Below, piece after piece: positions 1-48,256 of a DNA stretch of 64,000 nucleotides; position 1 is the first letter of the stretch; every line of letters begins with the position of its first letter. The DNA is from Ulota crispa (Eukaryota; Streptophyta; Bryopsida; Orthotrichales; Orthotrichaceae), in NCBI GenBank assembly GCA_963920765.1, contig OY987248.1, positions 9,768,539 to 9,832,538 of the forward strand, in the 5' to 3' direction. A program made the position numbers and the translations under genes. Below the pieces are notes generated by a model. That model had not been told where the DNA came from, did no database searches, and was given only the letters and a program-made list of their open reading frames with translations.

Positions 1-592
1 CCATAACTTTTGGAGCGTAGCTCCAAATGACAAATGGATGATGGTATTGGATTCCTTGGGCCCAAAACAGCTAGATTTGGTTGTTCACACTCCCAATTCC
101 AAGCTACAAAGCATTGGGAAACTTGAATGAAGGTTTAGAGGTGAATGGATGAAAAACTCAGAATTGGGAATTCATCCCAATTTGAGAAATTGACTTCCCG
201 AGGTCTTCCAACGTTGTCAAGGGAGATGGAAAACACTCCTGGCTTCCGTCAATTGGGCTCCAAATGGATATAATCTTGGAATTGGATGTCGCGCACGTTC
301 TTGAATTGGATGGATGTCGCCGTTTGAGATCTTGCCACTATCAAAACGACTTGAAACTTGGGGGACCTTCATAAATCCTTGAGAAACTCTTCCATGAATT
401 TTGGTGACATTTTACTGCCATTTGTCAACCTCCTTTGATTGGGGTGGACTGGTAGCCTAGCAGGGTTAACTATTTGGAATCACGCTCTCTGAAAAGCGGA
501 AGGTCTTGGGAACCTTGGGTATAGACGCACCAAAATGATAATGTGACTTGGACTAGGTGATGTGGCCCTTGGCCATGGCATAGCTAATCTAC
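1..592. other. Left-edge non-coding DNA
   Basis: No gene is visible. The stretch holds several short palindromes (around 11-27 and 160-183) but no long open frame or splice-consistent coding signal. Confidence 0.5.
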
Positions 593-633
593 TCCTAAAC
601 TAACCCTCTCTAATTAGGCTAGTGGGGACTTTT
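593..633 (+). repeat. 41-bp direct repeat, left copy
   Basis: A segment starting TCCTAAACTAACCCTC and ending GGGGACTTTT recurs almost perfectly at 3565-3605. The two copies lie on either side of the CACTA-type element. Because the element has its own 3-bp target duplication, the 41-bp repeat is best read as two units of a pre-existing tandem repeat, one of which was interrupted by the insertion. Confidence 0.8.
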
Positions 634-785
634 CACTAGTAGAAAACTCTATCCAAAACAATAGAAAATCAATAGTTTCTTGTTGTTTTGGGTACTTGCC
701 CACACTATTTGACTAAGTTAACAAAATTTTGTAAAAAACTACCTATGTTCTGTTGATTTGGACACCATTGTTTAAATCAACAAAA

Positions 786-1030
786 ATTTCAGAATCTTTG
801 AAAATCTATTTTGGAATCTTTGAGAATCTTTTGGAAATCGTTGAGCATCTTTGAGAATCTTTTCAGAATTTAAAAAATTTTAAAAATCTTTTAGAATCTG
901 TAAAGAATCTTTAAAAATCTTGGAGAATCTTTTTTATGTTTACGAGAATCTTTGAGAATCTTTGAGAATCTTTAAAGAATCTTTGAAAATCTTGGAGAAT
1001 CTTTTTAGGAATCTTTGATAATCTTTTTGA
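786..1030 (+). repeat. Degenerate GAATCTTTGA tandem repeat
   Basis: The words AGAATCTTTGA and AGAATCTTTTGA recur about every 11-20 bases through this stretch inside the CACTA element. Such sub-terminal arrays are typical transposase-binding regions in CACTA elements, but the unit is too degenerate to give an exact period. Confidence 0.6.
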
Positions 1031-2181
1031 AATCTTTAATTATGAAATTTTTTAAAATATTACATCCTCTTTATAAAAATAGAATCTCTTAGAGTTAATT
1101 AGAGTTGTTTTAGAATATTTTTGTAATTCAATAAAATACTTTAAAATATTTTTTCATAAAAGACTATTAGAATAGTTCAGGTTGTTTTTGAAATCTTTCT
1201 AGAATCTTTATGGACTATATGAAAATATTTTGAAGATTTGAAAAATAAAAGAAGTTTTCAAGAAAATTAGAATCTTTTAGAATTTTGAGTGTGGTTTTTA
1301 TCTTCATTTTTCACAATTTGGTATGATTTGACATTTGTAGCCTTTAAAGTCTACTAAATACATGACCAAAACAACAAAAAATCAACAATTTTTTGTTGAT
1401 CTAAACACTTTTGGACACAACTTCATTAATCCAACAAAATTTTATATAAAAAGTACAACTTTTGTTGTTTTAAGTACCAAATTTTCTTTATGAAAAATGT
1501 AAAAGATGCCCCTCAATTCTTTTAGAAAATCATGTATGTCCTTCAAAGATTTAAAGTATCAAAAATACCTTTGGCTTTTTGCAATATCAACAATGCCTCT
1601 AATATACTAGGAAATTATTAAAAATGCTCCTCAACTATTTTAAATTATCAAATATATCTTTGTGGAGTTTGAAAAAAAAATCTACCTTTGGTTTTGTGTA
1701 AAAATGCCAATTAATCTTTATTCTTAGATTTTGAAAATACCATAAATACTTGTATTTATTTTGTGCCTTTTTAGTGCAATTCTATTTTAAATATTATATT
1801 AAAAATAAAAATCACTACGCAGTTGATGCAATAGTTCTTGCAATGATAAATCTATATGCAGAAATCCTACAAAGGGCTTGAACAACTTGACTATAAGATT
1901 GAGTTTGCAATTAACTTGCCTCTATTTTTAGTAATTTTCATTATCATTCTAGTAGTTACAAAAATTTATTAAAAAAATATGAATTATGAGAACTTGTAAT
2001 AGCCTCAAAAATAACTAAGGGTATAGTTTAATTGATATTCTTACATAAAAGCAAACATAATTTTCATATATCAAATAACACAAGAGCATATTTGCTATTT
2101 CAAAATAAAAGAGCATTTTTGATATTATCTCAAAATAATAGGGTTAGAGTTGATACTTTGATAAAAAACAAGAGTATTTTT

Positions 2182-2438
2182 AACACCATATTCGTTAAAT
2201 TGGGAAAAACAATACATTTTGGGACTTTTGAAGGTTCTAGGTGGTCACCTAAAACCAAGCTAGTAGCATTTTTTTGGGTACATGTGCCTTCACCTAAAAG
2301 GAGGAATTTACAAGGGAAAAATTGTAGTGGCACAAACTAAATCTAATTCCTTCAAATCTGGTTTAAGGTAACATTTTGGGTTTAAAGCAAAGTACAAAAT
2401 GGTACCTCCATTTTTCCCAATTTAACAAATATGGTGTT
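2182..2438. mobile_element. MITE, GTTAAATTGGG family, copy A
   Basis: Terminal inverted repeats read AACACCATATTCGTTAAATT at the left and the complement of AACACCATATTTGTTAAATT at the right. The interior has a GGTGATCACC-type palindrome and a segment related to AAAGGAGGAATTTACAAGGG that recurs in the other copies (39090, 53099, 54899, 63244). No coding capacity is expected. It is nested in the CACTA element, so it inserted later or was carried with it. Confidence 0.8.
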
Positions 2439-3114
2439 TCTTGATATTGTAAATCATTAAGGGATAACTTTAATATTTTGAAACAACTAGAGAGCATTTT
2501 TAATATTTTCCCTACTTTTACAATTCAAATCAACAAAAAAAATAAAATCTTATGAAATAGTTTTGGAATCTTTAAAAAAGATTTTAAAATCTTCAAAATA
2601 TTATAGAATCATTTTCAATCTTTTGGATACTTTGAAATTTTGATTGTATGATTACTTTTTAATTCCATAACTATTCAAATTTTGATGTTTTTTTAAGCTA
2701 GCAAACTATGGAGGTTATTGTAATTTAATAAGAGTTTTGTTTTCAAAAATAAATAAAACTAAATCTATTCATAGAAATGAAGCCAATTCTCACTTGTAAC
2801 AATTATTTTGAGATTTATTTATTTCAATCAAAAGTTATAAACAAAAATCAAAAGGGTGGAATTAAATAATTTTTAAAAATTTCTAAACACCTTCTCTGAT
2901 TTTTACTCATAACTTTTGATTAAAGATCTGAAATCTAAATTTTTTTGTTGGAGGTTAAAGTAGACTACATTAACCAACTTTTTTTAATTCTAAGTTTTCT
3001 GAAAAAAGGCTCTCTATAAGGCCGAGATAGCCTCCAAAGTCTACTGACTTTGCAAAGTAATTAAAAATGTTTATGTTTAGTGTACAAATATACTTTTTAG
3101 CATAATGTGTGCAT

Positions 3115-3310
3115 GTGCAAGTGTAAGTGGTGTAATGGCAATAGGTGTAGATTGAGAGGTCTTCACTGTAAAGCCTGAGGTCTGGGGTTCAACCCTCAAC
3201 CTTGGTGCCTTTAGCCAACTTGGTGGTTGAGGTTGTGCCGGCCAAATCGTTGGTTGCAACTGCTACACCAGCCAGTGCTTGGCCAGGATTCAATTTTTAA
3301 TTTTGATTTT
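3115..3310 (+). mobile_element. Possible tRNA-derived SINE
   Basis: A B-box-like word GGTTCAACCC lies at 3186-3195, with an A-box-like word (GTGTAATGGC) about 55 bases upstream. This is the spacing of an internal RNA polymerase III promoter. A GC-richer body follows, then a T-rich tail beyond 3290. No target-site duplication was found, and the tRNA resemblance is only at the two boxes. Confidence 0.35.
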
Positions 3311-3564
3311 TCAGCATGCTGGTTTAAAAATATATATATTATGAAAAAAAAATTGATAAAAAAAATTAACAACAAAAATCAATTGAAAAATAAGCAAAAG
3401 TTAACAAAAAACAACAAAGAAACAACAAACTCTTGTTGAAAAGTACCCAAATCAACTTGACCAAATCAACAAATGAGATCACTAGTTTCAAGTTGAAATT
3501 CTGTTAATTTTCTATCAAATTTTCTACTAGTGTTTAGAGGGGATCTCAAGCCCTTAGTAACCAA

Positions 3565-3605
3565 TCCTAAACTAACCCTCTCTAATTAGGCTAGTGGGGA
3601 CTTTT
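3565..3605 (+). repeat. 41-bp direct repeat, right copy
   Basis: This matches 593-633. The bases between the CACTA element and this copy (3536-3564, containing GGGGATCTCAAG) resemble those just after it (3606-3622, GGGATCCCAAG). That supports an original tandem repeat with a unit of about 70 bases. Confidence 0.75.
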
Positions 3606-4744
3606 GGAAGGGATCCCAAGTTCCAAGTATGTGTGTCACTCAAACTAACTAAAAACCCCTTGATCTCACTACATCTCTCCTAATGACTTACCAAATGGAT
3701 TAGGGTAAATGGCGTACCGCTAACCATTTGGTTTAACTAATCTAAATCAACGTAAATGGCTATTCCACTTATATTAATGTAATTTCAAAGCTAAATAAAA
3801 CAAAAAATGAATTCAAGACTTCTGGTGCTAAATTTGGAACTCACAGTTAGGTCTTGTGCGTCCGGCGCAAACACAGACTGCAATTTCAAAGACCCTAGTA
3901 TGGGGCGGCATGCATGCACAAGACTGCGATCTACGTCGTAGACGCCAACCAAATGGAAGTACTGGTACGATTTGCAGGCAAGATACGACAGTTTGCTAGC
4001 ATTCTTACAGTGAATTTTCAACCAAAAGTTGAAGTAATATTGTATGTAGATGCTGCTTGATAGCATAGAACATAGAGTACCGTATTCATTCATTTAATTC
4101 AAGGACAAGCATCACTATCAGTCCTTATATAACATAGCTTGTTCTACTGAGAGCCAACGTTTACCGCTGATAGTACACTTGGTTTGTGTGGTTCCTTTTT
4201 TTGTGGTGGAGGGTGGGGGTTGTAGTGGGTGCAGTTTGAAGGGACGTTGCGGATAGACACCTCAAATATGGAGACTCCAGACTTCATTTAGCCGTCTCGC
4301 TTTGTTTTAATTGTCACCCGCTGCAGCTACTTAGTAAAGAGCGCACCAATGTTTTTGAATTCTTCAACATGTGACAACTCTAGTCTACTTGGTTAACTTC
4401 AACTATGCTTACAATTGCATCCGTATAAGTATTATCAGCCTTGCCTATAAGAGAAAGAAAAGATATTGCACATTATCAGAAGTTGATTGGAATCGGTATT
4501 AAGCAATGTACCTTTACTTTTTATGGAATCTGGAGTAGCTATGTTGTCTTTCTTGTAGATTCATGACCCTAGCAAGGTATATATATTTTTTTAAACTAAA
4601 CTAATGAAGGTGACTTCAAGCACTGCAAATTTGGGAAGTTCTTTGTATCTTGGCAAACACGTATAGCTTAACAATAATAAAACTAGACCTCCTAAAGTGA
4701 TCATAATTTTAAAAAAAACCTTCCGATTACCTGAGGGCTTGTCG
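3606..4744. other. No gene assigned
   Basis: A 100-codon minus-strand open frame (3791-4093) resembles nothing I recognise and has no splice support. The base composition is less AT-rich than the CACTA element. Part of it may be the 3' flank of the transposase relic that ends at 4745. Confidence 0.4.
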
Positions 4745-9734: not shown

Positions 9735-10747
9735 TGAATCCGCCACGACGAGGACCAAGGGCACCCCCTTCATCTCTTCTCCTTTTATCAGGAGGGAACC
9801 TAGTGTTAGCCCAAAGAACTTCTGGAGACTGTTGAAGGAGGTACGCTTTGTTAGGGCGCGCCTTCCTTTGTCATAGCAATGGTGCAATGCAATTGCTCTT
9901 GGTTTCTTTCCTCAGGAGTTTAGACTTTTTGTTAGAAATTTCACTTTGGTAATCAAAACACGGTTTCTGAGGACGTTGGTACTCTACTCTGTTGCAACGC
10001 CGCAAGCACAACGCAGCCGACCCTCACCAAATTGCTCGTAGCATTTGGGAATTGTTGCTCAGCCGCTACCATGTCGAAACTCTAGATCAAGTAGATCAAA
10101 CATAGGACTTGCTGATTAGGGTTTGGAGTTCCCGTTTAGTAGTTGTAGGCTCAAAGTGCGGGTATTGTTCAACCTCAGCTTTACTTTGTGCTAGACTCAC
10201 TGCCAAAGGCTTCATAGCAATGTACTAGTGGCGACAGCCTCTAAGAATGTGGAAGTCTTATGACCAGGGTGGACGTTTAAAGTAACCTCAACTGTTAAAA
10301 TTAATGATGCCTCGGGATCTATTTGCAGGGCGCAAAGCTACCAACTGAGATGACAACGACGCATAGGCAACGAAGATTTGGGTTGCAAGAGTCCCAGTCA
10401 GAAGGAGATCAACAATTGCAACCTCCAACAAACTCAAACTGTGCTGCTGTAAGATTATCTGTCCATACTTACCTAATAAGATTAAATCCAACTTCTTCAT
10501 GAGACAAGGTTAAACACAAACAATGTTTGTGATACTATCAAGATCCAAGAGAAGTAGGGATCCTACTCTTTGTGGATGATGTGTTTGATTTGCAGCTATC
10601 TACAAACTTGTTTGACCATAAAATGTGAATACTGAATAATCAACACACAGACCTAACTTTTCCGTAAGTGATGAAAAAGTGACTTCCTGACGTCCGTGTC
10701 TTTGACCACAAAGACAACCCCTAGTTGTAGCAGCCACCATCACCAGC
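9735..10747 (+). other. Possible upstream exons of the ParB-methyltransferase relic
   Basis: A plausible exon at about 9735-9840 encodes a basic segment with PFISSPFIRREPSVSPKNFW and ends in a GTACGC donor. At 10108-10452 a frame broken by several stops contains WSSRLVVVGSKCGYCSTSA. Both lie on the same strand as, and just upstream of, the better supported pseudogene. The link is inference; neither segment is recognised. Confidence 0.25.
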
Positions 10748-11301
10748 AGTGCTGGTCTAGAAGAGACAGAAGACCTGGAGATGCCGACCGCAAATACCTC
10801 GCTTCCGAAGAGTAGCACCATGGGGTCACCTGCGTATGGTGATGAAGAGGACGTTCTCGACAAAGCTGAAACGGTAAGGAATTCTATCCTGACTTTTAAA
10901 ATTTGAATTGCATAATACTTGATAGCTAGTAAAAATTCCTGCAATTAAAGATTTCTAATACCATTGGCATGGTTTCTACTCAATACAACTCCTTTATGTG
11001 TAAATTGAATGCAGCTGGCAACGCCTCGGGACATCAGCCAACATGGAAGCAAGAGCATCCGCACCCTGGCGACAGATTGTAGTAACAACCAAAAATTGGA
11101 GTGGATGGCGATGAAGAGATGATGGAAGAACATGAACCTGACAAAGACAAGGTGAATTTGCTTGAGAGCGATCTCCACCGTCTCCAGAAGAGGGACGCAA
11201 TCGCCTGCATTGCCGAATTGCGGAAGAAACCTGAGACGCTGTTCCGACTTTGAATTCCATTGATCAGGCTAAACCCCATGCTGATGGTGAGGCTGACACT
11301 T

Positions 11302-11825
11302 GCTTGCAATCTCACCAAACTCAAATATGAGTTTGTACACGGATACAGGGATGGGTCACTAGTATTCTATGTCTCCACCACGAACGAGGCCAGCAAGGGT
11401 ACCAACTTCTCTGATGCGGAGATTGCAGCCTAGGGGGCGTTGTGGCAGGCTAAAAATGCAGTATTTGTTTGATCTCTTGGTGCACACCAAGAGCTACAAT
11501 CTTTAGGAAATGCATAACTCTATGTGTGTGATGGTAACTACAAGCGGCTTGCTTGGATGAACTACATCAAAAAGCAACATCTAAAAGATCCTAAATGGCA
11601 TATCTCTGTCAACTGCATTGTTTTGGAGACAAATAGGCGCAATAAACTAGTGATGCAAGTCATGCACGACATAAATAAGTAAGCCTTGAATCTCCAACAC
11701 ATATAGTTCTTGTATGTCTATCCGCTTTTTCATGTAGTGTTGGCTAATATCAAAAACAAGGATCACCATACTAACTTGTGGTGTTCTTGCTCAGACACAT
11801 AGAAGACTTGCACGTAAAAACAAAT
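11302..11825 (+). other. ParB-like segment of the pseudogene
   Basis: The frame reads LTKLKYEFVHGYRDGSL, then ALWQAKNAVF, then LYVCDGNYKRLAWMNYIKK, then WHISVNCIVLETN, and is joined by a GTAAGC intron to KTNLVHTLYHVQKYG. The core DGNxxRLAW resembles the D-G-x-H-R-x-x-A signature of the ParB/Srx fold (typically VVDGHHRLAA); here the His-Arg pair reads Tyr-Lys-Arg. Stops fall at 11431 (TAG), 11470 (TGA) and 11514 (TAA). Confidence 0.55.
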
Positions 11826-12104
11826 CTTGTGCACACCCTATATCACGTCCAAAAGTACGGCCTTCTCCCATTGGAGAAATTCAAGGTTCTCTTGCATCCC
11901 AGCGAGCTGAAGAGGTGTTCCAAGACGTCCACTCGCAAGACATGGTACACCACACCAGCAGAGATCTTGTCCAGCTTCATTTTCTAGATAAGACTCCATC
12001 CTTTACCGTATTCAATCATTACATGCTTACATTAGCTAATCCACGTAGTTGTGCATCTAAGCCAAAGTGGCCCTTAAAGCCATGTTTATGGAATTGGAAT
12101 GAAT

Positions 12105-12350
12105 GCCGCGGTGGAGCCACCCACCGCGGCCCATTTCTATTTGTTTGATGGTTGCGAGCGAGTGGGCCGCAGTGGCTGGCGCCACCGCAAGCACCCTTAG
12201 CGGCGACGGTGCTCGCGGTGGCGCTAGCCACCGCGGCCCACTTTTATTTGTGCGCTAGTTAGGGGCAAATGGGCTGCGGTAGGTGGCGCCATCGCAAACA
12301 TCCGTAGCAGCAAGGGTGCTCGCGGTGGCACCACCCACCACGGCCCCGAC
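12105..12350 (+). repeat. GC-rich palindromic tandem repeat
   Basis: In otherwise AT-rich DNA, GC-rich units of about 100 bp recur around GGTGCTCGCGGTGGC (12207 and again about 12317) and TGGCGCCA-CGCAA. Individual units contain inverted pairs such as CCGCGGTGG with CCACCGCGG (12106-12129) and CGCGGTGGC with GCCACCGCG (12213-12236). It sits inside the methyltransferase pseudogene between coding segments, so it is probably an intronic insertion. It is rich in CG and CCGCGG sites. Confidence 0.7.
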
Positions 12351-14621
12351 TAAACTTATTGTTGATTGTGATTTGTTAGGTTGCTGTGCGTGGTGCCACC
12401 GCAACCCCGTTGCGTGCATTTGCTATTCATGATGTTTGTGGTTGCAATGGTACCCTTCTAAATATGGTTTCTATTCATGTAGTTGTTCCTAGTGGCAGTT
12501 TGGTACTTCCATTTGTGCTCTTGCAGTTGACATTTGGTTGTCATTCATTTGCACTACAGCAAGAAATCTCATCTGCCGCTAACCTTGATCTTTGAATTTA
12601 TACTGAGAGCACGCCGTTGGATCAAAATTCTACAAAGGCCGCTGCTGATGTCATGAGGGCTGGTGCAAAGGAGATGGAGAGGACACAAGTCTAGAAGATC
12701 ATGAAGCTTATTGCTGCGGCAAACCCTGCTAATGACAAGGAATTTTTGTTAGAGGTAATGTGTGTAGCCTTTACTTTGTTGTTTAAGCAGATCTCATTTT
12801 GACTCATTGATTTCTAATTATCTAATTGTTCTTCAGGTTGAGAAGCACTAAAGCTCAAACGTTGTTCCGGAAATGACACTCAATAAACTGCAAATTGTGG
12901 CTAGTTGTGCTACCACAGCGCATCATAAGACTAAATTTCTCAAGTGGTGGAATTTGAGTATACCATTTAGAGAGTCAAGGCGTTTTCCACCAAAGCCTGT
13001 TGTCAATGAACCACTGAAATCTTTTCTTGGGAAATGTGTATGGTACGCGGGGGTATGTACTTTATGTTTACATCAAACCAATACTCTTCATTTGATTCGT
13101 CATTTGTCTGGGTCACTGATTTAGGTTGTGCATGTAAATTTTGCTTTGTATTTATTGCCTTTTGGATCTTCTAGTATTTTAAGCGTCCATCATGTTTTAT
13201 TGCAAGTTAAAGATGCCGCCGTCAATTTCTATGAGAATGTGTTGAAGAAAGACAACATTCAGGTGGATATGGCTTCGTCACTTGAGCCAAAGTCTCTTCT
13301 AGAGTATATTGAGGGATGGAGACTCAAAATTTGGGACCAAGCGTACTTGGGTGTCCTTTGAAGCTCAAATAGTTTTAAAAGAGGCGACAGCTTTAACAAC
13401 GTTGAAGGTTGCAAACAGGTGGTACAACGGTTGTTGTTTTGGTAAGCTTTGAGTTATTGTCAAAGTTCTTATTCATTCATCATGGGTCTGCTTATTAAAC
13501 TTTATCGGTTGAAGTGTGGTACAGGCCAAATGTCTTGCATTTGTGGTTCATTGGCTAGTGTGTTTTGTGTTAGGTATTGATTGGGAGATATTTACCTCTT
13601 CAGTGGATTGTCTCATAATCATCGCCTGCAAACTTGAGTTTTAGTAATTAGTTGCCTATCTCAAAAGTTTCAGTACTCTTCCATGCATTGATGTTTGGTT
13701 GTGCACATTTTGGCATTAGGTACTTCAAGTATGAATTGGTTAAGAAAAAATCACTTTCTTACAAGTTTTTGCCTCTGTTCCTATCCTTGTGGCTTGACCG
13801 TACTTCATCTAAGTTCATGTTCACTGTTGGCCAAGTGAAACTCTTTACTACCGCTCAATTGGACAGCAGTGCTTGGTTCTTAGAGTGCAGCATTGACTTT
13901 ACACATCCCTCGGAGGTAACTCTTTGCAAATCTCTAGAAGGTGTTGGAGCTATTGACTTGAACCTACCTAAATTTGCCGGGTTGAGTGATGAGGCTAAAG
14001 CAAAGGCCATAGAGAAGCGCACGGCTGCAAATGCCAAAAAAACACTAAAGGAGAAGAATGCCGTGGCGCTTAAGGCTGAGAAAGAAGTAGAGAAGAGGAA
14101 GAAGATGGAAAAGCATGCTGCTGAGAAGGAGAAGGGTCCAAAAGGAAAGGCAAAGGTGATGAAGGCGCTGGCAGATGTCGCTCTAGAGCTTCCTTCTCAA
14201 ACTCCTTTTTAGATTCCTTTTCAAACCCCTTCTTAGACCCCTTCTTAGACCCCGAGTTTGCAAATGCAAACTCATTCTTAGCCAGCTCTGAAGAAAAAGA
14301 GCCAGCTTATTGAGCTTACTAATGACAAGGATATCATCATGCAAGGCTCTTAGGTTATTTCCATAGATGCTATCGTTGATGCCAATGTGCAGGAGTTGAT
14401 CTTGAATGTCTCTATGAGTGACGTGGTGGATGATATGGAGCTTCAGGGTCCAAATAACTACACCAAGGTCATGGACTTCCTTAGGAAGGTGCGTAATTGT
14501 TGTCTTCTTCTTCTCCCTCACTTCAAGTTTGACTATTTTGGAAGTTCTGTTTTTATTTCCTTACATCTATTCCATTACCACCTTTGCCAATTATTGAAAG
14601 GGTGATATGGCTTTTGTAGGC

Positions 14622-14970
14622 TACTGGCAACAAAGGGCGATGCAAAGCAAGGAAGGTGGATGTTGACGCTGTTGTTGACCTAATCATTGTCGATTGCCCG
14701 GAGAATCTTACAATTCCAATGATTTCTACTTCACCAACGGACAAACCTTTATGGAATTTGGATTTAAAACATGATTTTATGAACGCCGCGTTTGCTTTTG
14801 CCGAAAAGCATTTGCACGACAATGGGGTCATATTTGTTGTGCACTCTTTCAGCATTAGTGCTAAGTCTTGTATTGCAGGTTTGTGCAATATGTATGCTAT
14901 GGTAAAGAAGAAGGAGTGGCAGGCAATGAACCGTCTTCACCTAGCTTCTACTGTTCACAAATCAAAGACT
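14622..14970 (+). other. Methyltransferase motif IV exon of the pseudogene
   Basis: This exon is bounded by TTTGTAG before 14622 and GTAAGC after 14970. It is fully open for 116 codons: VDAVVDLIIVDCPENLT, then DKPLWNLDLKHDFMNAA, then HLHDNGVIFVVHSFS. DLIIVDCPE occupies the place of the catalytic D-P-P-Y/W of N6/N4 methyltransferases, with the two prolines reduced to one. The following strand (NGVIFVVHS) matches the usual G-G-x-L/I-x-V-F strand after motif IV. Confidence 0.55.
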
Positions 14971-16007
14971 GTAAGCTCGTTGTATCCTTTACTCCTTCCC
15001 TTATGTTCTAGTTCTTTTTGAATTTGTTCCTCATTCCTAGCGTGATGAATTCTTTGGTTCATTGCAGACCCAGAAGTTTGCGGCTACATTGTTGGTGAAA
15101 GACCTTAGGATGGAAAGGCAATCAAACTTTGGTTTTTGCTATACCAAGGCGTTGGAGAGCTTGGGTACTGACGTCGGGACAGATGACATGCTCCTAAATC
15201 TCCTTGGTTTTAACGGTTTGGCAAAACATGGGTCCATCCTTTGGAAAGGACAGCGGGAAAGGGTGCTCGCTTTTATTAGCTGTTTATTGAAGCTGCTTTA
15301 GCGTATGAAGACATGGTTGTTGACTGTACTATGTCAACTAGTTAGTTTTTACTTCATATCTTTCTATTGGTCTAAATCCATCAGTTTCCTATGATATTGA
15401 TTTTCCTCATTTTTGATTCTTTTATCAGGAGCGTCCATTGCCACTTGCTGTGCAAGTGGATGTAGTGTACTTGCTTTGGAGGCCAACAATGCTATATTTC
15501 AAGCTCTTCTTTGCTCCTTGATCCAGCTTTCACATGCTGCACCTGCTCTAATTGAGACAGAGACACTGCTAGAGAATCCTATGTCTAAGATCCGGATACT
15601 GCTATCATAGTTCCAATGCAGCTTGTGTGCAAGGCTGAAGCTAGTAAGTAAGTGGTTTTTGTAACCTGTATCCTTGTATACCATTCATTTTCATTTGGTA
15701 GTTGATAATGATTTTGACCTTGTGTTTCTTGTGCTTGTTCAGCCAAGCAGAAATGAAGCAGAGGAAGAAATCTAAAAGCAAGACTATTCTTGATGAGTGG
15801 ATTAGCCTAGATAAGACCTTTCTTTATCCATCTTACGCAATGGAAATAGGTGACACTTTTGCAAAATTTGGTACAAAAAAGCCTTCCATGAAACCTCCTA
15901 AGTACTCCGTTGATGTCTTAGAATGCATGGATGTAATGGCAATTGAAGGACGGAGGGATTCCTTGGACCATATTACTTCTGACTCTACTTCTGACTCTTC
16001 ATTCTAG

Positions 16008-17924
16008 TAATACCTAACATTTTGAATTTCATTGAAGTTTAGTGAGGTTATCTCACTTGTGATATATCTATATTCTATGGAGTTTGTTCTCTTATTGTTT
16101 CATTTTCAAAACCTCTTTTCTTCTCCATTTTCTCTTATCTTTTACCCAAATGGTTTGGAAACCTCTATTAAATTTGGATGCATGTTTATATTGTGGTATT
16201 AACTATGACACCTCTATTCCTTGCATTTTTTTTATAAAAATTATTTGTTAACCCTCTTCTTTGCCCTAAACCCTTATCCCACGGTCATAGGCATTAACTA
16301 CATTTGTTATAAACCTGGAAGCATGGTTATAGGTTCCCTTGTATTGTGTTCAAGGAAATAATTTCTCGCTCAAAGGCTTGCCCGCTAGCAACCCTGATGG
16401 TATATTGATTCTAGAACACATGTGTCATTAGTACAAAGACTAAAATAATGAGGAGCCGGCAACCTTCACAAACTATGTACAAATATGGTACTTTTTGCAT
16501 GGAATTTGGGTGTCTAAACGGCAACATGAAAACTTGAGATTTTGCAGATTTTTGGTAGGTGGTATATTGATTATAGAATGCATTTGTCACTAATATAATG
16601 ACTAAAAATACAATTAATTCCTCATTGAGAAGTTTTTTGGAGCTTCATAATGGAATAGAAGGAGTATGTGTTAAGATGCTAAGCAAATGAAATAGAGCTT
16701 GAGATACAAATTTATCAAGTTAGATAAGTTAGGATTGAATGTGAACATTTGGTTGTTGCTGTATGATTGGGCATTGTGTTCTTTGTGTAGAGTGGATCTT
16801 CCAACTCAACTATAAATTAATGATGTAAAGAGGATGGTCCACACTAGGTTCCACATCCTAGGATGCATGACACTTATAACCAACAACTCCCAATTCAAGT
16901 GGTGAGTTTAAGGTTTTGTCAAAAAAAAATTATCAAAAATTCAAGTCCAAGATGAAGCTTAGGGTTTGTCCCACTTGGTGGTGGAATTACTTTTGAGCTA
17001 ATGGATATATGTGGTATGCTTTCGCATTTCTTGTTCGACCAATAATTGTTAGTTATAAGAGTCATGCACTATAGCATCGTAAGTCCCACTTCAATCCAAG
17101 ATTCCAACTTTGTTAAGTTACAAAGAGGAAAAAAAACACACCAAAGACAACCTTGAATACTTTAAGCAAAAACAATTGGGCTTGGGCTTAAAATTGGAGT
17201 TTCTATTTTGCTTGACCCAACTAACACTATATTCAACAAATCAGGACATTCACTACATTTGGAAACTACCGGGGATCAAGTGGTTGAATGCCTAAAAGCA
17301 CAGTGTAGAGATAACCATGTGCACAATTGCTTGTGAATATGGAGGCAAGCATTCTAGAAAATTTTATAAAATTGAAAAACACAAACAAATATGGTAGGAA
17401 AATTTCACACCAAGCAGTGGTGACGGTGGATTTCACAAGACATCAAAGTTTCACAATTTATTGATTACAAGAATGTCATGTCTCTCACTAATTATCAATG
17501 ATTTTTTAGGCTAAACTTCACCCTCCTATTTTCTACCTTTTTATCTCCCTCTCCCCTTTTGAATTTCAAGTGACTTTTTCACCCTCTCTTTCCACGCCTT
17601 TTCTTCTCCCCCCTCTTTTTTGAATTTCAAATTTTAAGCAATTGATAGACACCCAATGTTTGACACCTAATATTTCATAATAAAGAATATTGAACTTTTG
17701 ATGTTAATAAAGAAATACTTTGCTTCAAAAACACTTAAAGCTTTACAAAACAGATAGCAATCAAATCATAAACAAAATCCCACTTTCTTAAACAGCAAAA
17801 ATTCCAAAAAAATGTTACATGCATCCCTAAGCATACAATCATGGATGTGAGAGTTGAAATGGTGAGAATTGCCAAATCCCAATTCTAAGATCCATACTAA
17901 GATATATTCATACTTGGCTCTAAC
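16008..17924. other. Gene-free AT-rich DNA
   Basis: No open frame with protein-like composition is seen. A related sentence, GTATATTGATT..TAGAA..CAT.TGTCA..A, occurs at about 16400 and 16560, suggesting an old local duplication. Confidence 0.5.
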
Positions 17925-18846
17925 CCCCAGAGGACCAACTGTCCCCTTGGTGAACAAATGGATTTCGGGCATTCACCTACATCTAAACTAGTTTTTGTGA
18001 TTTTTTGAAACTTTTATTGAAGGTGGGGAATTCAAAGATCTATGTGGGCATCTAATTTTTTCTTCATTCCAACATTTAATGAAGAAGTTATCAAGAATTT
18101 TCCAAAACTAGGGAGTAAGGGCAATTTGGGTAGGGCCTCTCTTTTGTAAGTGGGTGTTGACTCCAAAGAGGGTTACCTCTTATGGGCACAAGGTGTGGAT
18201 ACTTGGGCAAAGGAGAGTGGAGTGGAAGGTGCCCTTTTTGGGGGATTCCCAACCCTCCATTCCTTTTGCCCCTTGTAAAATTTGGTATTTTAATATTTGA
18301 AGTGGTTTGTGTGCTTGTTTTTTGACCTTTTTTTTCCCCAACTTGTAGTAGACTAAGATTCCTTGATTTTACCATTTGGATTAAATTAATATAGATTTTT
18401 GAATTTTACATAAACCCTCCAATTTTGCCCAGTGTATTTGCAAATTTCATGGCCTTTCAACATTCAAAGATTTTTTGAAGTATGTTGTACACCTCCAGTT
18501 CATTTGATAATACTCCCACATGTACCTAATTGGGTCTTCTACATGGAGCAATTAAACCTCAACTTTGTGTAAAGCAATTTTTTTACTATAAGAGTGGTAA
18601 AAGGCTTTTGAGATTTTTGGGCAAGAAGGAAAAATATTTGTTTTTGTCACTTTAGATGTAAATATCTCAATCCTTTCCATCTACAACAAGCTGATTTTTT
18701 TCTCCACAATTACCTTCCACAGTCTAGGGCAAGATCAGACAATTGGATTTTCATAGAAAACCTGTTTTTCTACCTTTCTACTCATTCCCCTAAAAATGAC
18801 AATTTTTGATGAGTTTCACAGAAAAAAAGGCTTTATCTTTTAAAGG
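17925..18846. mobile_element. TTAA-bounded piggyBac-like element, copy 1
   Basis: The left end reads CTAA then CCCCCAGAGGACCAACTG, and the right end reads GGCTTTATCTTTTAAAGG then TTAA, both degenerate versions of the family termini. The interior is the reverse complement of copies at 23511 and 46668: shared words include CCTCCAATTTTGCCCAGTG, AAATTTCATGGCCTT and GGCAAGATC. It is non-coding and about 920 bp. Confidence 0.65.
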
Positions 18847-19107
18847 TTAAAAATGATAGTAGCAAAGGAAAATTAAATGCATTTGAACACTCCTTTAGAT
18901 TGTATTCACATTGCTAATACCCCTCCTACCACCAAGTGTGAACATACCTTAGTCAACTTAATGACTAGTCACATTCCTAGAAGTTGTACCACTCAATTTC
19001 TAAATTTTCTTGACCTATTAAATTTGAAAATTTCTCAATCAATCAATTATGAGATTTCAATAGGACTTAAGATGTGGAACGTATTGGGAACCACCTTTAA
19101 AGTTCAA

Positions 19108-23140: not shown

Positions 23141-23510
23141 AGATAGACAATTGTCATTTATTATCTCAAAGCTTTTTAACGCGTATATACTAAGATTTTT
23201 TATATTTAAATCTCTAGCATTCAATAAGAATGGTATAAAATTTTATGTTTTGTGAAACATGATTTTTTTGGTTTGTTATAGGAAACAAAAATCAACACAA
23301 TTGAAGTTTTTAGATTATTAAAATTCACATGATAAATTTTTAGGAGAAGGCTTCTAATACTTTTACCAAATCAATTTTGTTTTCTAGAGCAATTTGTCCA
23401 TAAAGTTGCATTATTTCATACTATTGTTAGATGAACAAGGAAAAAAAGTTCATAATAAAATGCAAATGTCATTCACTTTTTGGATTACATTCAAAACTTG
23501 TGCTATTTAA

Positions 23511-24442
23511 CCCCTAAAGGACCAAGCCCTTTTTTTTGCTAAAATCATTGAAAACTGCCACTTCTAGGGGATGAGTAAGAAAGTAGTTTTTTTTTTTTTT
23601 GTTGGATTCCCAACCGTAGGATCTTGCCTTAGACTAGAAGAGGTACTTCTTGGGAAAAAAAACCAGGTCATTCTAGAAGGAGAGGAGGAAGATATTTACA
23701 TCTGAAGTGAGAAAAAAAGTTTTTTTTCTGTGTTGTATGTAAATTTTAGAAGCCTTTGACCTCTCTTACATGAAAAAAATTGCTCTATCCAAAGTCGTGC
23801 TTTTAATTTGCCATGTAGGAGATCAAGTTAGGTATATGTGGGAGAATTTTTAAAACAATTGGAACTGCACAACATATGGGAAAAAAATTGTAAGTAAAAG
23901 GAAGTGGAGAATGAATGAAAACACTAAAATGTTAAGAATTTAGTTACTAAAATGAAAATGCAAATCCTGATGGTTATAGGGTTGTAATAAACAATCTACT
24001 TCCTTTGGGGGGTTTTTATTTTCCAAAAATATTGAAATTGAGTAAAATAAAGGACTTCAAAGCTTATTTTAGAGTAGAGAATCCATAATTGCCTGCAAGC
24101 AAAAACTCCTCATAACTTTTATCTCATTGATTGAAATTGAATGATTTGAAGCTCCCTAGGTATAACAAAATCTAAATAACCAATTTCATTTTTTTTTAAT
24201 GTGAATTTTAAAAAAGTTTTTTGGGCTGCCTGGATGTGCAGTCCTCTCCAAATTTTCATAAATTCATGCATGACTTCTTCAATAAATTTTGGAATGAAGA
24301 AAAAAATTAAATACCCACGTAAATCTTTGGATTCCCCATCTTCAATAAAAGTTTCAAAAAAATGCACAAAGTAGTTTAGTTGTAAGTACATGCCCAAAAT
24401 CCCATTTGTCCCTTGAATGAAGGGACAATGGTCCTTTCAGGG
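23511..24442. mobile_element. TTAA-bounded piggyBac-like element, copy 3
   Basis: TTAA at 23507-23510 is followed by CCCCTAAAGGACCAAGCCC; the right end CAATGGTCCTTTCAGGG is followed by TTAA at 24443-24446. The 13-16 bp termini are inverted repeats and the TTAA on both sides is the hallmark target duplication of the piggyBac superfamily. The 932-bp interior has no transposase frame. Confidence 0.8.
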
Positions 24443-25596
24443 TTAACACCTCAAAAATTTTGCTTCTAATTAGGAATGTATGCAAATAGATGTTTAATTT
24501 CAATACTTTGTGTAAGAATATTCCAAAAGTTATAAGAAATCTTTTTACTTCCATCAGTTGCCATTTTTTACTATACGAAGTTGCCGTTCAAAATGTTTTC
24601 TTTGGCAATTGAAACTTTGATGACATTATACCCTTATAAATATAGAAGAATGGTCCATCTTCAATTTTGTAGGTGCGTCTTTACTTGGCCAATGCTTAAC
24701 CTCTTAATTTTTTTAGCAAATCAAGATTCAAGACTATCCTTTGCTAGAAATAACTTGGGTCAAAACATTGTGTAACTAGGGGATTTAAAAGCTCATTTCT
24801 CTTTGAGAGTAAATATGTTTTCCTTACAAATCTTTGTGCGAGATATTTATATTAAAAAAATCTACAATAATTTCTTTGTTTTCTCGCCCAAGAGAGCTCC
24901 ATACTTCAACTGTTGCTTACTATGATAAATGCACAAAACTCTTCATTTTTCATGAGAATACCGGGAGATTTGCATAAGAGGACCTTGTTTTCTCATACAA
25001 ATGTGCGTGAGGTAACTTTGTTTAACTTTGGCTTCAAATCCCCTATTATGACTGTTCATACAATAGAAAATTAGCAACCAGGTTATGTCTATCATGATTG
25101 CATTATTCACCAAAGACATCCAATTTGCATGATAAGTTATATATATATAAATGCAAAACAAATTTGAGAAAGATATCAAGAAATTCAAGGGAAAATTGTT
25201 AGAAGACTAAATTATCAAGAGATTTTCCTCTCTCTTAATTATCATTGTTACATCACTTAAGGTGTCCCAACTTATTTTTTACCATAAAGTTGGATGAATT
25301 GGGAGGATCAACAAGCATCGTGAAGTATTGTAGAAGACCGGCTCCTTCCAATCATTAACCCTTGAACAACGGGAAGGCCCTTTGCGGCCAGTATAATACA
25401 TGGTATTTTTCTTGTATTTGGAATGGATCCACACCTCTATTACGTTTGGGACCAACAAAGAAGTTGGAAAATAGATCAATGCTATTCTAGTGAGCTATTT
25501 GAGATCCCAAATTAAAATTTCTCATTGGTAGCAAAGGACAATTATACGTCAGCATATTTACTATGCCCTATAGGCGTTAAAGGGTTAAGCCCTTAA

Positions 25597-39612: not shown

Positions 39613-40228
39613 GATGAGTGAGAAGTTTTAGTTTACAAATATGGGACTCCCAAACCTCTAATCGTTCTACCCCTTGTAAAATTTGGTGCTTTACTATTTT
39701 GAGTTCTTTGTGTATTTGTTTTTTGACTTCTTCTTTTTTCCAAGTTGTAGTAGATTCCTTGGTTTTCATCGTTGGGGTCAAAGTAATTCAAACTTTTGAA
39801 TTTTACATAAACCCTCCAATTGTGCCTAGTGCATATGCAAATTTCATGGCCTTACGACATTGCAAGGTTTTGCAAAGTATGATTCACACCTCCAATTCAT
39901 TTGAATATCCTCCCACACTTACCCATCTTGGTTTTTTCATGGAAAAAACAAACCTCAACTTTGCATAGAGCAATTTTTTTGGATTTAAGAGCAATCAAAG
40001 GCTTCTGAATATTTTGGGCAACAAGAAAAATACTTTTTTTTCCACTTTAGATATCAATATCTCACTCCTCTACATCTAGAATGAGCTGATTTTTTCCCAC
40101 AAATATCTCCCATAGTCTAAGGCAAGATCTTATGGTTGGATTTCCAAAAAAAACTTTTTTTGCTACCTTTCTAATCATTCCCCTAAAAGTGGCAATTTTC
40201 ACAGAGAAAAGGGCTTAGTCCTTTACGA
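39613..40228. mobile_element. Truncated TTAA piggyBac-like element, copy 6
   Basis: The right end GGGCTTAGTCCTTTACGAG is followed by TTAA (40229-40232). The interior is the reverse complement of 46668-47280 (CCTCCAATTGTGCCTAGTGC, GGCAAGATCTTATGGTTGG). The other terminus is absent, replaced by the foldback arm, so it cannot be mobile. Confidence 0.65.
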
Positions 40229-41036
40229 GTTAATCCTTGAACTACAGCTTCCCTACAATGATGTGGTTGGTGTGGCAAAGTGCTTACAATACCCTTGTAC
40301 AAAATCTTGAGTAGAAAATCATCAATTTTCATTTTCAAAATCAGATTTTTGATGTTGAAAGTAAACTTCAAAAAAAACTCATATTGAAAAAAAAACTGAA
40401 AATAATGATTTGATAAGGTTTTGTTCACCTTCAAAGTTTTATAAAGACCCAAATCTGGTCGCTTGGGCATTTTGGATTTCCACTTGAAGGCGCATGCCAC
40501 TTTCTAAATTCTAAAATAATTGTTATGCACTTACTTTTTTGTCCAAAAGTTCCAAATCTTCTTGCCTTGCCCTCCTCCCTAACTTTAACATTTGTTGATG
40601 AAAATTGATATAAAATCAACAAGTATTTATTTAATGTACAATGTGAAGAAATTAGTGTTGGACAGCCTAAACGCAATAATCAGTGTAGAATTGCTCAAGC
40701 GGATGGATGACATTGACTACTGGATAAAATTGCTAAATCTCCCTCAGAAATACACTACGGTAAGTTCTCCAATTTACGGATGGAAGTTATGAAGAAGAGC
40801 TGATTTTACAGATGAACATCACTTGGTGGATGTTTCTATCTACGTCACTCCTTACCGCTATGGATTCTACACTGAATATTGCATTTAGGTTGCCTTGGCA
40901 ACTAGGTTGCCTTACTCCAATAAGTTATTTCATGACTCATCACTTGGTCACTTGGAGGCACATGCAACTCACTAAATATTTAAATTTTACATGGTTTGAG
41001 ACTTGGAAGTCACTAGTTTGTCTTTTTGTTGTTTCA

Positions 41037-44995: not shown

Positions 44996-46667
44996 ATTAC
45001 TACTTCTTGCTACTATCTCTTGCAAACGTCATTGATTTGTGGAAATCAATTTTTTTTTTAAAAAATAATAGAACACTTCAATTTAGGAGGTTTTGCAACA
45101 ACAAAGACTATAAGTAAATCCTTAAACAGGAGACATAGTGAAGCTTAGAGCTTAAATTTTCAAACATTTGTGTCCTGAATTTTATTCAAAATAAATACTT
45201 GAGTTTGGGTAAAGGAAAAAATTGTCCTTCTTAGGTTCCATATATTTAGGACTGAGTTGCAATCACAAACTCACATATTGTATTAAACTCTTACTACATT
45301 ATTTTCTTCCATTGTGTTTACTTAATTCATCATGTAGTCTATTTTTGTCTTTATTACCTCCCTCTTATTCAACATACTTGTTGTTTGACAAATCAATACT
45401 TGCATGAATTCCTTTTGCTAATCATTCGTACTAGCTAACCTATATTCCAGTACTCTCAATTCTTTTCAATTGAGAGGTTGTGATATCTAATTATGTTGTT
45501 TTCCTTCTTGTGCAAATTGGTTTTATTTTCAGATTGTTTGATTTACTATTGCTTTTATTCCCTAAAAATTTCCTTTAGGCAAGCATAAAATGTTCTAGGA
45601 TGAATTAAAGTTTCTTAAAGCAAACATAAAACATGAAGATGTTGTAGGACTCCTTGGAGCAAATTTAAAAGAGCTTAAGAAGTTGATGCAAGTTTAGAAT
45701 ACCTCTAGATGATTTGGGTTATTTGGAGTGCCCCAAAACATACCATGACAAACTTATTTCCACATTTCAATCACTTTATAGTACTTGACAAATCAAGCAA
45801 AAACATATGACTTATATAAAAAAGTAGATTGTAAGACAAGTTAGCTTAAATAAAGTTTGAGTAGTTTTAGGCAATTCAACATTTTAATTATAAAGTTTAA
45901 AAGAAATCAAAAAATATAAACTCAAACTCACTATTTTTCAAAAATCTCTATCGATATTGTTTGCTACAAATTAAACCAAAGAATTTGTTAATTCTAATTG
46001 CCTAACAACAGAGGTGACGATCTAATAGATTGATCATTGCCTTACTTTGGGTTATTTATATGAACTTTTTATGATTTATTTCTGTATAAAGTTTATATTC
46101 TCTAAATTATAATCACCATGTTTGAGAATTTTATTGCATGAAATAAAGTGCAAAGGATTCAGTATTTGCTAAGATTTTTGTAGCTTACAATTAAAAGATA
46201 TTTTTGATGTCTTCATCAACAATGTATTGTGTATTTTGTACTTAAAAATCAAAGAGTCCTTCCAAGCCTATTATAAAGATAACTAAATTCGAAAGATAAA
46301 AAGCAAATTCTTTGATGAACTTTAAGAGGCAAATTGCTTTAATACTTGTGTAATATAAACAAATAAATAGTTCGATCTCTTTATTGAAAAAATATCCTAT
46401 AATCATGCATGTGAATGGAGTTGTTGCCATTGTATTAATGATCTAAAAACTGTGTAATAGTTAAGATTAAACAAACTTAATGTTAATCTTTAATTGCTGG
46501 TGTAGACTTTAGTTTTTTCTTTAATTTATATTTTCCATACTTAATGCCCGCTACGACATCCACAAATTATAGTAAGAAAACAATCTTTGAAAGAAAGATT
46601 GCAACCTTTGTGAACTCTTGAAATTCTTGAGAACAAAAAAATCATATGATTTACAAACTTTCATTAA
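44996..46667. other. Gene-free AT-rich DNA
   Basis: Only short low-complexity frames occur. No repeat structure or splice-supported coding sequence was found. Confidence 0.45.
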
Positions 46668-47609
46668 CTCCTAAAGGACTAAGCCCCTTTTTTTTTTGTG
46701 AAAATCACTTAAAACTACCACTTTTGGAGGAATGAGTAGAAATGTAGGAAAAAAAGTTTTGTTTGGGAACCCAACTACAAGATCTTGCCCTGCACTATGG
46801 GAAGTACTTGTGGGAAAAATATTAGCTCATTTTAGATGTAGAGGAGTGAGATATTGACATTTGAAGTGACCAAAAACATTTTTCCTCCTACTCCTTAAAA
46901 ATTTCAAAAGCCTTTGATCTCTCTTATATCAAAAAAATTGCTATACGCAAAGTTGAGGCTTATTTTTTGCATGTAGAAGATCAAGTTAGGTATGTGTGGG
47001 AGAATTTTCAGATGAATTGGAGGTGTGAATCATAATTTGTAAAATCTTGCAATGCCCTAAAGCCATGAAAATTGCATATACACTAAGCAAAATTGGAGGC
47101 TTTATGTAAAACTCAAAAATCTAAATTACCTTTACCTAAATGATGAAAACAAAGGAATCTTTATCTACTACAACTTGGAAAAAAAGAGTCAACAATCAAA
47201 TACACAAAGAGCTCAAAAAAGTAAAGCACCAAATTTCACAAGGGGCAAAAAGAATGGAGGTTTGGGAGTTCCATACTTATTTGCACATTAAAACTTTCAT
47301 CTCATCAATCAAAGTTGAATGATTCAAAGCTTCCCACATATGCATAAATCTAAAAAACCAATTTTAGAGTTCTTTTTTTAAAGGAAATTTTTTAAAACTG
47401 CTTAGACAGCTTGCCTTTCCCTTTATTTCAGAAATTCATTTTTAACTTCTACAATAAATGTTGGAATGAAGAAAAAATTAGATGCCCGCCTAAATCTTTG
47501 AATTCCCCATTTTCCACAAAAATTTCAAAAAATCACATAAAGTAATTTAGTTGTAAGTACATGCCCAAAATCCCATTTATCCCCCAAAAAGACAATGGTC
47601 CTTTAGGGG
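46668..47609. mobile_element. TTAA-bounded piggyBac-like element, copy 8
   Basis: TTAA (46664-46667) precedes CTCCTAAAGGACTAAGCCCC; the right end GACAATGGTCCTTTAGGGG precedes TTAA (47610-47613). It is 942 bp and matches copy 3 (932 bp) end to end in the same orientation, so both descend from one short master element. Confidence 0.8.
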
Positions 47610-48256
47610 TTAAAACTTCAAATTTTATTAAGGTACAAATCACATAAGTATAAACTTATACGACATTTTATTTGTTTATTTTTGGATATCATGTTCATAT
47701 TTAAAAGATTGATATTGTGAAATTTATTATATTTGAATTCAAGACACTACTCGTGAACTCGAATATAGAAGTTTATATTCATTAATTTGCTAATTAGAAG
47801 TCGTAGAATTGGTAGAAGCTATACAACACTTGGATGCCCATTAAAAATTAAAAATTATCCAAATAGCTCAAACTTTACCCCATGTTTATCCAATGGTCAT
47901 GCATCTCAATAAACAATCTCAGATTCTCATATGTTAATCCCTTAGACCAAATGGGACTTGTTTTATTTTAAATGCAAAAACGTATGAGTTCAACACAGAG
48001 GAATCAAAGGAAGTCTGTCCAAACTCTTCAAAGTACACTTGAATACTAACAGAGTAATAGAAAATCTGGCACCTACACCGACCAGGCCCCTTTCTAACAA
48101 CTCAAGTAATCAGAGCATCTTCCGCGTTGCCATCGACCGTCTGACACAGTTCAAGCATGCACAATAAGTGCTCCAAGCCCCTCAAAATTCTCTCATGCCA
48201 CTCCATCCTAGAGTGTCAACTCAATGGTCTTTCAAAATACTCCGTACTATACTATA

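Follow-up and report, generated by a model that had tools for sequence, protein, structure and literature searches.

A decayed accessory gene with a degenerate methyltransferase-like half in a large transposon of the moss Ulota crispa

DNA-modifying enzymes that travel on transposons are a growing theme, and what use they are to the transposon is mostly unknown. The 21.5-kb Sola1 element Sola1-1_Ec32 of the brown alga Ectocarpus is described as carrying an opposite-strand accessory gene for a 1104-amino-acid protein with ParB and N4/N6 methyltransferase parts, and green and red algal transposon proteins of the same kind are cited in that report (PMC12477816). TET/JBP genes are reported to be carried by several lineages of fungal DNA transposons (PMC12730594). 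In Arabidopsis, VANC proteins of VANDAL transposons are described as stripping methylation from their own elements; their targets are often tandem repeats in noncoding parts of the element, introns among them (PMC5735166). A full-text literature search (titles and abstracts, among the matches listed, with most subscription journals outside its coverage) found no plant or moss example of a transposon gene of the algal kind. The subject of this report is a pseudogene on the plus strand of a 64,000-nucleotide stretch of the U. crispa genome (contig OY987248.1, positions 9,768,539 to 9,832,538), referred to throughout as the window, in which the gene occupies about 10.7-16.0 kb. It is probably a decayed accessory gene of a large cut-and-paste transposon, placed head-to-head with a transposase-like gene, and its product probably served as a DNA-binding factor rather than in active methylation.

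The gene is one of many. Exon g (120 amino acids, window 14620-14970) gave at least 138 matches at E<=1e-3, far above chance, in the 274.8-Mb genome (157 contigs; best 150 of 183 candidates scored), and removal of four fragment rows leaves at least 134 family loci. Exons recur in the same order, whole or in part, in 20 further fetched copies of the near subfamily, 14 of which keep all ten profiled exons while the rest lose one to six (L014 keeps just four). Decay is general among them. In the window copy, in-frame stops separate the exon pieces and the frame shifts ahead of EDMVVDC; the exon-profile table shows this copy free of stops, since its own open frames served as seeds for the profiles and the stops fall between those frames. 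Stops lie inside profiled exons in 19 of the 20 fetched near copies and between profiled parts in L014. With L011 as polariser, transitions account for 178 of 221 and 171 of 211 changes in the comparison of the window copy with its nearest relative, C>T/G>A being the larger class among the transitions that separate the two. These ordered exons, loci and lesions bear out an earlier sequence-only reading of the locus as an intron-containing pseudogene of a multicopy family. Its expectation of intact relatives elsewhere found no support in the 21 near copies, all of them broken, which are the loci that the whole-gene check covered.

The sequence-only reading had also offered a domesticated or transposon-borne origin, and the second of these is confirmed by the ends of the element, by the duplications of its target site, by comparison with an empty site and by its linkage to a transposase gene. 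A 3' terminus, CTAGCAACCCTG, lies at 16385-16396 of the window and is common, with at most 2 mismatches, to the window and all 20 fetched near copies, beyond which the flanks diverge. In three copies extended upstream the 5' end begins with CAAC or CAAGG, includes GCTAG with about 2 mismatches at most, and repeats the 3' end imperfectly in inverted orientation; the termini of the element are CA..TG. As cut, the elements measure 14,220 bp (L011), 14,248 bp (L010) and 12,481 bp (L025), and since L010 has its 5' end three times in tandem, its length is possibly up to ~14.4 kb. Target duplications of 9-10 bp flank all five elements with both ends read, that of the window included. L025 has a perfect 10-bp duplication. 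In L010 the two outer copies of the 5' end each show a perfect 10-bp match and the inner copy matches at 9 of 10 positions, as does L011; in L014 and the window element the duplication is 9 bp long.

The 5' end of the window element lies outside the window. The best transposase match on the window chromosome, at C7:9723205, lies some 45 kb ahead of the window and has the expected orientation, and the predicted 5' region reads ATGGTATAT then CAACGACGCTTGCGTGCAAGCCTAGAGTGG. The first of these, at C7:9719906-9719914, stands just before the 5' end of the element and 48.6 kb before window position 1, and its duplicate follows the 3' end at 16397-16405. That the predicted duplication turned up at the predicted place is the strongest single test of the analysis. 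Around the insertion the host DNA consists of tandemly repeated units of ~160 bp, 83-85% alike (window 16397-16650; L041 at ~3800-3915), so that a short duplication match alone could mislead. The joined flanks of the element align ungapped over the junction with a neighbouring host repeat unit (83% over 133 bp), and both halves therefore belong to one insertion. The window element extends over C7:9719915-9784934, or 65,020 bp, against 12.5 to ~14.4 kb in full-length relatives, and most of this excess is presumably due to insertions.

The other half of the element encodes, on the opposite strand and divergently from the methyltransferase-like gene, a protein whose region VYDSRY...FMADSAMANW...TCLLHW... 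appears DDE-like and whose end, CxC...CxH, appears SWIM-like, both labels being motif readings by eye. The DDE-like region has at least 151 genome matches (best 150 of 172 candidates scored). Of the 134 methyltransferase-like loci, 75 have a transposase match that lies 5' of the gene, on the other strand and no more than 25 kb away (median 9.7 kb), a count that rises to 77 if any orientation is accepted; 200 random placements gave a mean of 0.9 linked loci and a maximum of 4. By eye, a match is also found at all eight fetched loci of a far subfamily (L032-L039), which is ~20-35% identical to the near subfamily in the methyltransferase part, and the gene pair is therefore probably older than the subfamily split. 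A search for the near-family 3' terminus did not find it where expected in these eight loci; L038 has a single 2-mismatch match to it, without the preceding repeat of the family. To judge from these sequences, the far subfamily looks like a separate element family carrying the same gene pair.

A Pfam-unmatched transposase with this many matches, its DDE-like and SWIM-like motifs and the duplication length suggest that the element possibly represents an undescribed transposon superfamily. Two described superfamilies were considered and dropped. MULE elements have target duplications in the range of 9-11 bp, into which the 9-10 bp seen here fall, and membership was suspected on that account; the MULE domain PF10551, with 74 places in the genome, was unmatched, in that by eye none of these coincides with the listed places of the element's transposase. 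Membership of hAT, suspected from a CAGGG terminus, was abandoned in view of the 9-10-bp target duplications and the lack of a Pfam transposase family.

Profile comparisons show, at the level of sequence, that the C-terminal half of the family has homology to beta-class N6/N4 DNA methyltransferases. Exon pieces from the two subfamilies, 22 in all, were aligned (A5; in its first row, L039, the reading runs across two introns and one stop), and this profile, searched against all PDB sequences at E<=10, gave two matches only, both N6-adenine DNA methyltransferases: CcrM (6pbd, E 0.0084) and 5hfj, an adenine methyltransferase of the DpnA type (E 1.7). Each is collinear with the family in motif IV and in the helix-strand block that precedes motif I, with every piece weak when taken alone. 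In hhalign, the family aligned with 13 phage beta-class methyltransferases (A6) at P 95-96%, E about 1e-8 and a score of 60-64, against scores of at most 8.5 in 100 column shuffles (run in hhalign default mode) and P 0.5 for the reversed control. Without trimming, the match rests on 60 columns around motif I; 187 columns align after trimming, in which columns with fewer than four rows were dropped. The near subfamily alone gave P 85 and the far subfamily alone P 91. The profile comparison with N6/N4 methyltransferases that had been proposed as a check thus found homology, and the claimed beta-class order, motif IV before motif I, stands with its controls. The curated cut-off of PF01555 was not reached, 1 of 22 members matching at E 0.11, and no Pfam family reached cut-off for nine scanned exon pieces of the window gene. 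A whole-genome search with PF01555 gave seven matches, all below cut-off, two of which (C8:9968292 and C2:32943976) sit 464 and 278 bp downstream of a family exon g, the other five not being so placed.

Canonical N6/N4 methyltransferases have the catalytic tetrad (D/N/S)PP(Y/F/W) in motif IV and bind S-adenosylmethionine through motif I, DPFxGxG. The latter is visible in rows of the phage alignment. Motif IV of the family reads D-(C/Y)-(P/L/S/Q)-(E/K)-N in 21 near copies and D-(I/V/M)-P-(E/K/D)-(G/N) in eight far copies, except for NILEG and DILEG in two; the canonical tetrad occurs in 0 of 29, and the aromatic residue at the fourth place is absent from all 29. Motif I reads DCTASTG and variants, its first glycine having become S, A or D and its proline C, Y or A, and DPFxGxG is found in none of the 28 copies read (L038 excluded). 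Replacements common to two distant subfamilies point to a loss before the split rather than to separate decay, and catalysis has presumably been lost. The replacement of the tetrad and of the first glycine of motif I in both subfamilies speaks against the active adenine or cytosine modification system that had been suggested for this locus.

The loss of these motifs was accompanied by continued constraint on the protein. Median pairwise dN/dS, computed with pairs saturated at synonymous sites excluded, is 0.16 for exon a2 (32 of 120 pairs with finite dS), 0.14 for c (55/171), 0.19 for d (36/92), 0.19 for e (51/189), 0.22 for g (94/210) and 0.27 for h (121/189). Exon j is weakly constrained, with a median of 0.43 over 186 of 210 pairs, 184 of the 186 lying below 1. 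Such low values indicate that the protein was under purifying selection through most of its history, methyltransferase exons included. The fetched copies themselves are now decaying.

The N-terminal part is harder to assign. Exons a1-a2 contain the motif FVCDGNHRRLAWM, which resembles the GxxR core of ParB/Srx domains, and the VCDGNHRR-type motif fits the ParB/Srx-like core that had been proposed; domain membership was not established, the profile score lying within shuffles. Against eight phage ParB domains (A7) hhalign gave a score of 14.7 (P 0.3%), with shuffles reaching 16.9, and the alignment comprised 13 residues, exactly the GHxR/GNHR core. A PHROG ParB-like family matched 2 of 18 members weakly (best E 0.17). 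ParB in Pfam matched 0 of 18 members, the profile found no ParB in PDB, and PF02195 matched nowhere in the genome. A search for ParB relatives among phages and plasmids with one family sequence as query found nothing credible (best E 2 and 0.1).

The function considered most probable is sequence-specific binding to DNA of the element itself. Contact with terminal or intronic repeats would be made by the N-terminal part together with the degenerate methyltransferase fold; candidate targets are the terminal repeats (GCTCACAG)n or, among intronic ones, the 107-bp array at 12107-12346. Such binding would counter host silencing or help transposition without methylating DNA. Several points weigh against this account. 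Unusual motifs are tolerated by some enzymes. A ParB domain in the N-terminal part is plausible from its motif and unproven. The transposase protein has no family match in Pfam, and 57 of the 134 loci are without a transposase match within 25 kb. The terminal and intronic repeats are weak evidence for a candidate binding target, and the subterminal motif ACCTATRACC (one mismatch) is modestly enriched: three elements have 6, 1 and 3 sites where 1.4-1.7 would be expected. A wider history can be offered as a tentative possibility, by analogy: an old plant transposon lineage, its transposase outside the Pfam superfamilies, may have taken up a ParB-methyltransferase gene that stayed under selection once catalysis was gone, the dead enzyme becoming a VANC-like anti-silencing factor.

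An active N6-adenine or N4-cytosine methyltransferase that marks its own transposon, as suggested for the Ectocarpus Sola1 gene, is unlikely. It would share its domain pair with the published transposon gene as described (PMC12477816), and the methyltransferase fold and purifying selection agree with it; the tetrad, which reads D[CY][PLSQ][EK]N or D[IVM]P[EKD][GN] ([DN]ILEG in two distant copies), and the S, A or D in place of the first glycine of motif I in 28 copies of two subfamilies speak against it. More unlikely still is a structural partner of the transposase that plays no part in silencing, for instance a subunit of the transposition complex that binds the termini. In both subfamilies the gene is closely linked to the transposase and divergent from it, as would suit such a partner, and terminal repeats are on hand as its binding sites, but many transposons do without a protein of this sort, and the present evidence does not distinguish it from an anti-silencing factor. 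An origin outside any transposon, as a domesticated host gene family or as a viral or bacterial gene that became endogenous, would account for the multi-exon structure and the purifying selection. It is very improbable in the face of the transposon termini, the empty-site comparison, the transposase linkage and the target duplications, the last of which largely refute it; scans with single proteins also found no relative in viral contigs (queried with two exons) or in prokaryote genomes (queried with exon g only).

In the window, open frames of the gene are conserved from ~11.1 kb to a stop at 16007, and all exons described here are on the plus strand. The peptides quoted in the sequence-only reading are all present, each in a separate exon-sized open frame: YVCDGNYKRLAW at 11521-11556 (exon a2), DLIIVDCPENLT at 14677-14712 (exon g), EDMVVDCTMST at 15307-15339 and GASIATCC at 15428-15451, with the Lys/Glu linker around 14000-14160. 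Upstream of the main exon run, a further conserved coding piece at 10341-10427, LPTEMTTTHRQRRFGLQES, was found by tblastn of an L010 open frame (52% identity, E 1e-5) and is probably an early exon. Exon a1 (11086-11430) has an acidic N-terminus followed by IPLIRLNPMLMVRLTL...FVHGYRDGSLVFYVSTTNE, with a stop at 11251-11253, and exon a2 (11518-11682) has YVCDGNYKRLAW... and the ParB/Srx-like core motif, which reads VCDGNHRRLAW in relatives. Exon b (RHIEDLHVKTNLVHTLYHVQKYGLLP..., 11793-11984) is separated from exon c (EMTLNKLQIVASCATTAHHKTKFLKWWN..., 12858-13061) by a long intron, in which a repeat search found the GC-rich tandem repeat of 107-bp unit and 2.2 copies; parts of this repeat are also present in the nearest copy, L009. 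Exon d (KDAAVNFYENVLKKDNIQVDM...) lies at 13185-13349, exon e with the basic Lys/Glu linker at 13712-14212, and exon f (VISIDAIVDANVQELILNVSMSDVVDD...) at 14354-14488. These exons, from a1 to f, are conserved across copies.

The methyltransferase exons were placed by copies together with profile comparison. Exon g (14620-14970) carries the motif IV strand VDLIIVDCPENL, in which DPPYN has become DCPEN, and the next strand, GVIFVVHSFS. Exon h (15068-15340) has TQKFAATLLVKDL... and then the frameshifted FIEAALAYEDMVVDCTMST, corresponding to the helix and the motif I strand; its acceptor is AG in 14 of 16 displayed copies and AA in 2. Exon i (GASIATCCASGCSVLALEANNAIF, 15429-15643) forms the end of the methyltransferase domain and aligns to GTTxxAAxxLxRxxIGIExD in the profile alignment. 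Exon j (15743-16007), recognised from the copies, is the C-terminal tail up to the stop TAG. A search for a second gene copy within the window found none.

Other repeats are scattered through the window. A repeat that is continuous in L026 (window 1-633 plus 3533-3833) is interrupted at 633-3533, probably by a nested insertion, parts of which recur in L018 and L024. A dispersed repeat occurs four times, at 17921-18851, 23506-24455, 39613-40234 and 46663-47622 (71-85% identity), and also in the flanks of several fetched copies. Long palindromes at 50153-50404 and 58023-58448, 80-81% self-complementary, are perhaps foldback elements.

The idea of a ParB-methyltransferase transposon gene is already in print for a brown alga (PMC12477816) and is therefore not new; of its two halves, the transposon-borne methyltransferase stands for the moss locus and the ParB part does not yet. 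What is new here is the catalytically degenerate form, in an element with a Pfam-unmatched transposase. The algal kind of transposon gene would thereby be extended to a plant genome. A fold kept under selection with its catalytic motifs gone is a natural separation of function, by which the ideas that such a protein marks its own DNA or only binds it become directly testable.

Set beside the known systems, the moss gene resembles that of Sola1-1_Ec32, as described, in its position opposite the transposase strand, its ParB-like and N4/N6 methyltransferase parts and the giant size of its element. It differs from that description in its many exons, its degenerate catalytic motifs, the 9-10-bp duplications and CA..TG termini, a transposase unrecognised by Pfam and a ParB part at motif level, the comparison being one with the published description rather than with algal sequence (PMC12477816). 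With CcrM (6pbd) it shares the order of motif IV then I, the helix-strand block leading up to motif I and the GRxxLALExD strand after it, whereas DPPY and DPFxGxG are replaced in the moss family. The TET/JBP genes of fungal transposons, as reported, likewise represent a family of DNA-base-modifying enzymes captured by DNA transposons, although the enzyme family is another one and several other transposon superfamilies are involved (PMC12730594). Like VANC, the moss protein would be an accessory product of a plant DNA transposon in which a transposase gene is also present; VANC is described as having DUF1985/DUF287 and no methyltransferase fold, and the likeness would be one of role only (PMC5735166).

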